Positions 28,509 through 31,387 of a stretch of 64,000 nucleotides of DNA are shown here, in pieces. Numbering within the stretch: the stretch's first letter is position 1; each line of letters starts with the position of its first letter. Position numbers and translations under genes: made by a program. The stretch lies in the NCBI GenBank assembly GCA_001464545.1, contig LNFC01000006.1, positions 1-64,000 on the forward strand, in the 5' to 3' direction. Source of the DNA: Acidobacteria bacterium Ga0077551. Lineage in GTDB: Bacteria > Pseudomonadota > Alphaproteobacteria > Caulobacterales > Hyphomonadaceae. The notes beneath the pieces are model-generated. The model saw nothing but the letters and a program-made list of their open reading frames with translations. It was not told the DNA's origin and made no database searches.

Positions 28509-29606
<1,098 letters not shown>

Positions 29607-29761
29607 GGCGCCTTGCACTCCGGATTAGCTGAACCGGCGCATTAGCCCCTTTTGCCGCCCGAAAACAGGCACAAAAATCGCTTCGCAGCTTAAATGGCTG
29701 GCTTGGCCGTGCCGCGGGGGTATTCTCCCGTGGTTAACCGTATCAGAAGGGTACACGCCCC

Positions 29762-30724
29762 ATGAGTTATGACGTCTTCCTGGTGTCCGCGATCGAGGAC
29801 CGGGACACCGCCAAACTGGTGGCGCGGCGCCTGCGCGCGCTCAAATTCCGCGTCTGGCTGGACCAGAAGCAGGAAGACGAGACCTTCGACGCGAAGGACG
29901 CGCGCGATGCGATGAACTCGCAGACGATGCTGGTGCTGTGGTCGGCCAATGCCGTGAAGAGCGACTGGGTGCGGGCGGCCGCGGCGGTGGGAAATTCCCG
30001 CGCGGGCACGCTCGCCGAAGCCGCGCTCGACAAGACCATTCCCTATGAACCTTTCCGCACGCACAAGCGGTATGCGCTTGATGGCATGACGTCGCGCAAG
30101 TCGCCCCCCGCCTTTGCGGACCTGATCGATGAACTTGGCCGCCGCCAGGGCCGCAGCGACCTGCGAGAATGGAACGCGTTCGGCGCGCAGGACGAGGACA
30201 AGCGCCTCGACTGGCTCGCCGCCCACCCGAATGACCCGCTGGCGCTGGACGCCAAGAAGAAGCGCGAGAAGGATCTCGGCATCAAGCCCGCGCCTGCGCG
30301 CGAAGCCATCGGCGCCGCAGCGCTCGCCGCCGCCTCGTTGCGCGGTACGACCTCCGCGCCGCCGCCGGCGAGCACGCTATCGCCGCAGCGCACAAATGGT
30401 GCGGTGCCGCTCGCCTCGGACGGCGCCATCGCCTCGGCCAACCTTGCTGGGGAAGCGCTTGGCTTCGGCACGATGATGGCCGTCAGCCTTGCGATTGGCG
30501 CGATGCTGATCCTTGCCTGGGCCTTCCGCTCGCAGCCCGCTGCGACGGCGCCAGGCATGATGCCCGCGATCGCCAATGCCAGCCTGGCGCCCGCAGCTTG
30601 CCCGGCCGGCACCGTGCCGCGCTCGATGCTCCGTGTACTGGAGCCCGGCCCGATCATTGACGATACGCGACCACCGCTCGAGCCGGGTCCGATCATCGAC
30701 GATACGACGGAACAACCGGGCTGA
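29762..30724 (+). CDS. TIR domain-containing protein with one predicted TM and a C-terminal 13-aa repeat
   Basis: MSYDVFLVSAIEDRDTAKLVARRLRALKFRVWLD...; TM TMMAVSLAIGAMLILAWAF; LEPGPIIDDT twice. Confidence 0.85.
   Translation: MSYDVFLVSAIEDRDTAKLVARRLRALKFRVWLDQKQEDETFDAKDARDAMNSQTMLVLWSANAVKSDWVRAAAAVGNSRAGTLAEAALDKTIPYEPFRTHKRYALDGMTSRKSPPAFADLIDELGRRQGRSDLREWNAFGAQDEDKRLDWLAAHPNDPLALDAKKKREKDLGIKPAPAREAIGAAALAAASLRGTTSAPPPASTLSPQRTNGAVPLASDGAIASANLAGEALGFGTMMAVSLAIGAMLILAWAFRSQPAATAPGMMPAIANASLAPAACPAGTVPRSMLRVLEPGPIIDDTRPPLEPGPIIDDTTEQPG
30638..30706 (+). repeat. 39-nt tandem repeat in the TIR protein C-terminus
   Basis: LEPGPIIDDTRPP / LEPGPIIDDTTEQ at a 39-nt period. Confidence 0.7.
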
Positions 30725-30744: not shown

Positions 30745-30777
30745 AAAAAAGCCGCCGGGCGAACCGGCGGCTTTTTT
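30745..30777. terminator. Bidirectional terminator between TIR gene and atpF
   Basis: AAAAAAGCCGCCGG-gcgaa-CCGGCGGCTTTTTT. Confidence 0.88.
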
Positions 30778-30802: not shown

Positions 30803-31387
30803 CTATTTGAGGACGCGTTCGATCTCGCGGGCTGCGGCTTCGAACTGGTCGACGCCGGTCTGGTTTGCCATCACGCGCCGAGCTGCCTCAGTCGCTGCAT
30901 CGGCAGCAGCGCGCCGCACTTCGCTGGCCGCTTCGGCTTCTGCGCGCGCGATGCGGGCGGCGGCCTGCGCTTCGCGGCGGGCAATTTTTTCAGCGAGATC
31001 TTTCTTTGCTTCATCGAGAAACGCTTTTGCTTCGACCTTTGCCTGCTCGATGATGGCTTCGGCTTCCTTGTCAGCATCCTGCTGGCGGCGTTCAGCCAGG
31101 GCAAGGGCTTCTGCCGCCTGTTCACTCAGGTTGGCTGCCTGCTCCAGTTCGGCCTTGATGGCGTCCACGCGGGCATCCAGACCGCCGAGTATGGCCTTGA
31201 ACGCGCCCATGCGGCCTGCAATGAGCAGGAACACGACCATGGCGAGGAAGGCCGTATGGGTGACCGGATCCTTGAGGGCATAAAGGAGACCGGCAACGAA
31301 GGCGCCAGAGCCGTCGCTTTCCGGTGCTGCGGCAGCTGCGGGCACCAAGAGCGCCGACAGAAGAAGAAGCGAGGACATTTTCTTCAT
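30803..31387 (-). CDS. atpF: F0F1 ATP synthase subunit B
   Basis: N-terminal TM, long charged helix, position in F0 operon. Confidence 0.87.
   Translation of the reverse strand: MKKMSSLLLLSALLVPAAAAAPESDGSGAFVAGLLYALKDPVTHTAFLAMVVFLLIAGRMGAFKAILGGLDARVDAIKAELEQAANLSEQAAEALALAERRQQDADKEAEAIIEQAKVEAKAFLDEAKKDLAEKIARREAQAAARIARAEAEAASEVRRAAADAATEAARRVMANQTGVDQFEAAAREIERVLK

Follow-up and report, generated by a model that had tools for sequence, protein, structure and literature searches.

A core, membrane-anchored TIR domain protein with a degenerate NADase site encoded beside ychF in Hyphomonas and related bacteria

Introduction

Most work on bacterial TIR domains has treated them as immune enzymes that consume NAD or as virulence factors. 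Their NADase glutamate is the E of the WxxxE motif, at Trp+4 (PMC11374754). Because this Glu is conserved in >70% of all TIRs and is lacking in somewhat under 30% (PMC7075850), its absence from a single protein is weak evidence, and orthologues were therefore collected for the protein described here, which is encoded in a 64,000-nucleotide window of contig C6, part of a 3.08 Mb genome most closely related, among named organisms, to Hyphomonas.

Compared with the TIR NADases AbTir, BtTir, TcpC, and BtpA/TcpB and with the TIR domain of SARM1, this protein has the same TIR fold and keeps the Trp of WxxxE, but in its family, which we call pseudo-TIR, the Glu is replaced by Ala, Ile, Met, or Leu, the box-1 SYK is lost, and the BB-loop Gly is mostly lost; it differs further in having a membrane anchor and a tail that is probably periplasmic, and in being neither a mobile nor a defence gene. 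A second comparator is the animal TLR, MyD88, and MAL group, which likewise has a TIR without the NADase chemistry that appears to be lost here, and of which MyD88 and MAL are fold matches. As in the TLRs, the predicted topology is single-pass with the TIR in the cytoplasm, but the pseudo-TIR domain is N-terminal (the reverse order), the ectodomain is tiny, the protein is bacterial, and the link is one of fold only. The TIR domain is of a known kind, and its core, membrane-anchored, catalytically decayed, and ychF-locked form is new; the literature searched contained no paper on the pseudo-TIR family or on the pairing of a TIR gene with ychF.

Results

A TIR domain joined to a single transmembrane helix and a short tail

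The gene starts with ATG, an ORF check found its coordinates and translation to be exact, and the protein runs from TIR domain through helical extension, linker, and one TM helix to the tail (Table 1). The TIR-like fold assigned to the N terminus by a sequence-only reading is borne out, with a score against Pfam TIR_2 (PF13676) of 35.3 bits (E 1.9e-8), above the curated cut-off of 28 bits. TIR_2 is matched by 32 of 32 diverse orthologues (E<=1), and members from genus g7 and genome G241 score under the cut-off. The AlphaFold model of residues 1-175, for which 11 relatives were included in the input, has a pLDDT of 85.5 and a pTM of 0.83, and the full-length model is poor everywhere but in the TIR and TM-helix regions. 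In a Foldseek search of the PDB with this fold, the top 50 matches are almost throughout TIR domains, both enzymatic (SARM1, AbTir, BtTir, BtpA, SPARTA) and adaptor (MyD88, MAL). Against the isolated TIR domains of SARM1, MyD88, and MAL the target TM-scores are ~0.6-0.7. A sequence search of solved structures with a narrow alignment gave a weak BtTir match only (E 0.14), plus chance reductase matches. The protein belongs to the TIR domain superfamily, with a predicted flavodoxin-like TIR fold.

Table 1. Features of the pseudo-TIR locus, in window coordinates.
Feature	Position	Strand	Basis
Pseudo-TIR membrane protein CDS, 320 aa + stop	29762..30724	+	orthologues aligned
TIR domain, residues 1-100 (Pfam TIR_2 at residues 5-75)	29762..30061	+	profile match, fold model
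Degenerate WxxxE, W69-V-R-A-A73, Ala at catalytic Glu position	29966..29980	+	orthologue alignment
Helical extension, residues 101-170 (GRxDL...HPxDPL)	30062..30271	+	also found in the most closely related Glu-bearing TIRs of the order
Ala/Pro-rich low-complexity linker, residues 171-232	30272..30457	+	model confidence mostly low
Single transmembrane helix, residues 233-257	30458..30532	+	hydropathy maximum; model helix 234-256
C-terminal tail, residues 258-320, probably periplasmic	30533..30721	+	G241 peptidoglycan-binding member, K/R count
CPxGxxP tail motif, C280-P286	30599..30619	+	68/68 full-length orthologues counted
13-aa repeat, two copies (LEPGPIIDDT + 3)	30638..30715	+	only two PGPIIDDT DNA sites in genome
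ychF, Obg-family ATPase, invariant divergent neighbour	28509..29618	-	synteny across orthologues
143-bp divergent intergenic region between pseudo-TIR gene and ychF	29619..29761	.	sequence
Strong bidirectional terminator-like hairpin	30745..30777	.	-26.7 kcal/mol, z -4.6
atpF-type F1Fo subunit b gene; adjacent in part of Hyphomonas only	30803..31387	-	synteny

The NADase site is degenerate throughout the family

The earlier reading had taken the segment SDWVRAAAAV, which it read correctly, to have Ala in place of Glu at the third position after Trp. The catalytic site is Trp+4 rather than Trp+3, but as A72 (+3) and A73 (+4) are both Ala, the conclusion that the catalytic Glu is missing stands despite the miscount. 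None of the 72 orthologues has Glu at Trp+4: the residue is Ala in 49, Ile in 11, Met in 8, and Leu in 2 of the 70 aligned, and Leu and Ile in the two fetched later. Conservation of the Ala, which had been proposed as a check, holds in that Glu never appears, but the residue itself varies, and drift among A, I, M, and L is what would be expected without catalysis. Other, non-orthologous TIR loci of the genus carry Glu in 30 of 33 cases, Asp in two, and an unclear residue in one. The loss extends beyond this position, since the box-1 sequence DVFISYK of Glu-bearing relatives has become DVFLVSA in the pseudo-TIR family, and nearly all members have a shorter, substituted BB-loop sequence in place of SG (D here). 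The 320-residue protein has none of the TIR NADase hallmarks (Trp+4 Glu, box-1 SY(K/R), BB-loop Gly), and it retains Trp69 and the TIR fold.

A different Glu placed in the catalytic pocket would have overturned this reading. Conservation among orthologues gives no sign of this: every Glu of the TIR core varies within the family, which speaks against another Glu taking over catalysis. A pseudogene or one-strain mutation is ruled out by the family-wide loss and by purifying selection, the TIR-domain dN/dS being 0.03-0.16 in close pairs, so that the protein is maintained and not decaying. From these alignments we strongly infer that NADase catalysis has been lost in the pseudo-TIR family, and the suggestion that the protein does not deplete NAD gains strong support from active-site loss throughout. 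A residual or altered enzyme, in which the TIR domain would bind NAD or another nucleotide and use a different catalytic residue or act in an assembly-dependent manner, could account for the retention of Trp69 and the fold and for the acidic residues D4, D13, and D90, which are strongly conserved in orthologues. It also has a precedent in Glu-independent TIR effects, namely that the toxicity of amoeba TirD is independent of Glu and that under crowding an E-to-A mutant of TirC is active (PMC13142454), which counts against taking Glu loss to imply inactivity. Such an enzyme seems improbable to us, given that three active-site elements are gone together, that Trp+4 drifts, and that the best-conserved Glu of the TIR core, E96, is Glu in only 57 of 70 orthologues and is located after strand D.

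Topology and the conserved tail

The single TM segment noted earlier is confirmed as one helix by hydropathy and by the model, and it is the hydropathy maximum in every full-length orthologue. The TIR domain probably lies in the cytoplasm and the tail in the periplasm, because the distant G241 member has peptidoglycan-binding domains after its TM; the charge distribution agrees with this, with the 60-residue flanks of the TM having 6.4 K/R on the N-terminal side and 3.1 on the other, which favours the N-terminal side inside. The G241 protein (L116:1517-3115, minus strand; 533 aa) comes from another family of the same order and shares with the pseudo-TIR protein Ala at Trp+4, a TM, and divergence from ychF, but it differs in carrying two PG_binding_1 domains after the TM (Pfam E 4.5e-27) and in lacking the CPxGxxP tail. 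This TIR-TM-PG_binding arrangement was the sole case seen among 60 genomes of its family and comes from a single assembly.

The CPxGxxP motif is present in 68 of 68 full-length orthologues counted, and an orthologue fetched later (L213) has a variant CPNG in its place. The sequence LEPGPIIDDT follows the motif in many orthologues and not in all. The 13-residue tail repeat reported previously is real and has two copies, LEPGPIIDDTRPP and LEPGPIIDDTTEQ, but the second copy is not conserved, being degenerate or absent in most orthologues. PGPIIDDT has just two DNA sites genome-wide, and no second protein with the same tail was found elsewhere in the genome. A longer tandem array in the tail was ruled out: there are two copies, TRF reported none, and the repeat is degenerate in orthologues. 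The g7 orthologues L085:4375-5541 (minus) and L088:4397-5521 (minus) have ~100 extra helical-looking residues before the TM (LSLIGGIADHVRLEMRKRGVGTLALLATLP...), which had no Pfam match in the one orthologue scanned; their tails keep CPxGxxP and lack PGPIIDDT.

A core gene fixed beside ychF

A strong orthologue is found in 72 of 105 Hyphomonadaceae genomes, comprising the window's own genome, 41 of 41 genus-mates, and members of g2, g3, g6, g7, and g9 (genus counts were taken by hand from the orthologue table). It is absent from 6 of 29 genus-g3 genomes and from 15 of 15 genus-g10 genomes, and the gene is therefore not universally required. In a maximum-likelihood tree of TIR domains all Glu-less orthologues fall on one side of a branch with support 100/99, and the G241 protein groups with them on long branches; its orthology rests on more than the tree because of its Ala at Trp+4 and its divergence from ychF. 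The pseudo-TIR family is a core, vertically inherited, single clade.

The window ORFs confirm the neighbours named in the sequence-only reading, ychF and an atpF-type subunit, with no adjoining defence gene. The ychF gene is the divergent neighbour in 72 of 72 orthologues and in G241, with a start-to-start spacing of ~130-165 bp in most orthologues and 222 bp in g7. The opposite flank varies: part of Hyphomonas has ATP synthase genes there, others have a thioesterase-like gene, and most g3 genomes, like g2, g6, and g9, have pth-rplY. Genomes that lack the pseudo-TIR gene commonly have the order rplY-pth-ychF, and in the simplest history the gene would have inserted once between pth and ychF, after which the locus would have been rearranged and the gene occasionally lost. 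The invariant pairing, the compact intergenic region, and the changes on the opposite flank (atpF, thioesterase, pth) might point to a factor linked to YchF, co-regulated with its gene and acting at the membrane in some process of translation or stress. We consider this improbable, as ychF is present in 29 of 30 genomes tested and the TIR gene is not universal, as genomes without the TIR gene commonly have ychF behind rplY-pth, and as shared promoters alone can preserve divergent adjacency.

A promoter scan found nothing. On the ychF side of the intergenic region a stretch is conserved across the genus (aaaaacaggc...tcgc), which is perhaps a ychF promoter or leader. The hairpin of Table 1 sits between the pseudo-TIR gene and the convergent ATP synthase genes and is likely a bidirectional terminator; A and T runs lie on its flanks, and a simple terminator scan missed it. 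A functional tie to ATP synthase was ruled out, since atpF adjoins only in some Hyphomonas and the strong hairpin lies between.

Defence links and other TIR loci

Searches of phage and plasmid collections gave no match to the pseudo-TIR family, and defence models gave no match to the window protein better than E 0.0045. None of the partners that mark Thoeris, TIR-STING, TIR-SAVED, and SPARTA defence systems was found, whether as an adjacent gene (such as ThsA, cyclase, or Argonaute) or as a fused domain; the neighbours are ychF, atpF, thioesterase, or pth-rplY. The patchy, mobile distribution typical of defence systems is not seen either, the gene being present in 41 of 41 genus-mates at a constant locus. 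One could still see in the protein a part of a defence system, such as a membrane adaptor needing a remote partner: TIR domains are common in bacterial defence, and PADLOC models show a weak resemblance (PDC-S66, with 1.4e-5 as the family's best E; ThsB, 0.0079). This is very unlikely for a core gene that has a fixed locus, is subject to purifying selection, lacks an adjoining defence partner, and is unmatched in phage and plasmid records. The earlier view that the protein is not a defence effector is thus strongly supported by its core status, vertical inheritance, and fixed synteny, and by the lack of a phage or plasmid match or of a clear defence-model match in these searches.

Besides the pseudo-TIR gene, the window genome has seven TIR_2 loci, of which six encode Glu and one Asp, and the closest paralogue, L003, has the helical extension in common with the pseudo-TIR protein. 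Both points are compatible with a regulatory decoy, a dead TIR that would bind and restrain the active TIRs of the cell much as an immunity or dominant-negative subunit would. The other TIRs, however, differ from genome to genome (1 to 18 TIR_2 matches per genome), yet the pseudo-TIR gene is always kept in the genus, there is no fixed partner, and the sole TIR_2 match of G052 is the orthologue itself; we regard a decoy as improbable.

Discussion

The reading that we favour, with a probability of roughly 0.55, is that of a domesticated, non-enzymatic TIR which gives a single-pass envelope protein its assembly module, rather than that of a defence effector. A scaffold or membrane-signalling role, as first proposed from the sequence, is plausible and is suggested by analogy. 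In such a protein the TIR domain would face the cytoplasm and no longer process NAD, and its fold would be retained for TIR-TIR contacts, so as to serve as an assembly or docking module. The flexible linker and TM helix would join it to the short periplasmic tail, where the CPxGxxP motif would probably pair, by a disulfide or by docking, with an envelope component. Contact with the envelope, made through C280 or the tail, would be coupled to TIR-TIR or TIR-partner assembly, and the whole would act as a single-pass scaffold or signal relay in the normal envelope physiology of Hyphomonadaceae. A bolder and tentative version, which we hold to be possible but unlikely, is a Toll-like arrangement in which a cytoplasmic non-enzymatic TIR on a single-pass protein, its outer part touching the envelope (peptidoglycan in the case of G241), would form assemblies that relay or organise envelope state, as a housekeeping protein domesticated once from an NADase-type TIR.

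A core, membrane-anchored TIR family with a decayed site suggests a non-immune, non-enzymatic bacterial use of the TIR fold, in which an immune-type enzyme fold may have been repurposed as a housekeeping component, structural or signalling, in Hyphomonas and related marine bacteria. The family also makes the role of catalytically dead bacterial TIRs testable in a culturable genus.

The closest sequence relatives of the pseudo-TIR family are Glu-bearing TIRs of the same order, such as L003, which have in common with it the TIR and an extension ending in a HPxDPLA-type motif, but which keep SYKREER, the BB-loop SG, and WVRAEA and are encoded elsewhere in the genome. L003, unlike the pseudo-TIR protein, is a longer protein that carries its TIR at the C-terminal end. 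L001 and L004 are Glu-bearing TIRs followed by a TM and then, by eye, a formylglycine-generating-enzyme-like domain, and TIRs resembling them recur in the genus. Finally, in a second TIR-like Hyphomonas family (L187, L008), whose members are ~463 aa long and score weakly against TIR_2, Asp replaces the catalytic Glu (SKWVRQDVEAA), and matches of this length recur in many genus genomes.
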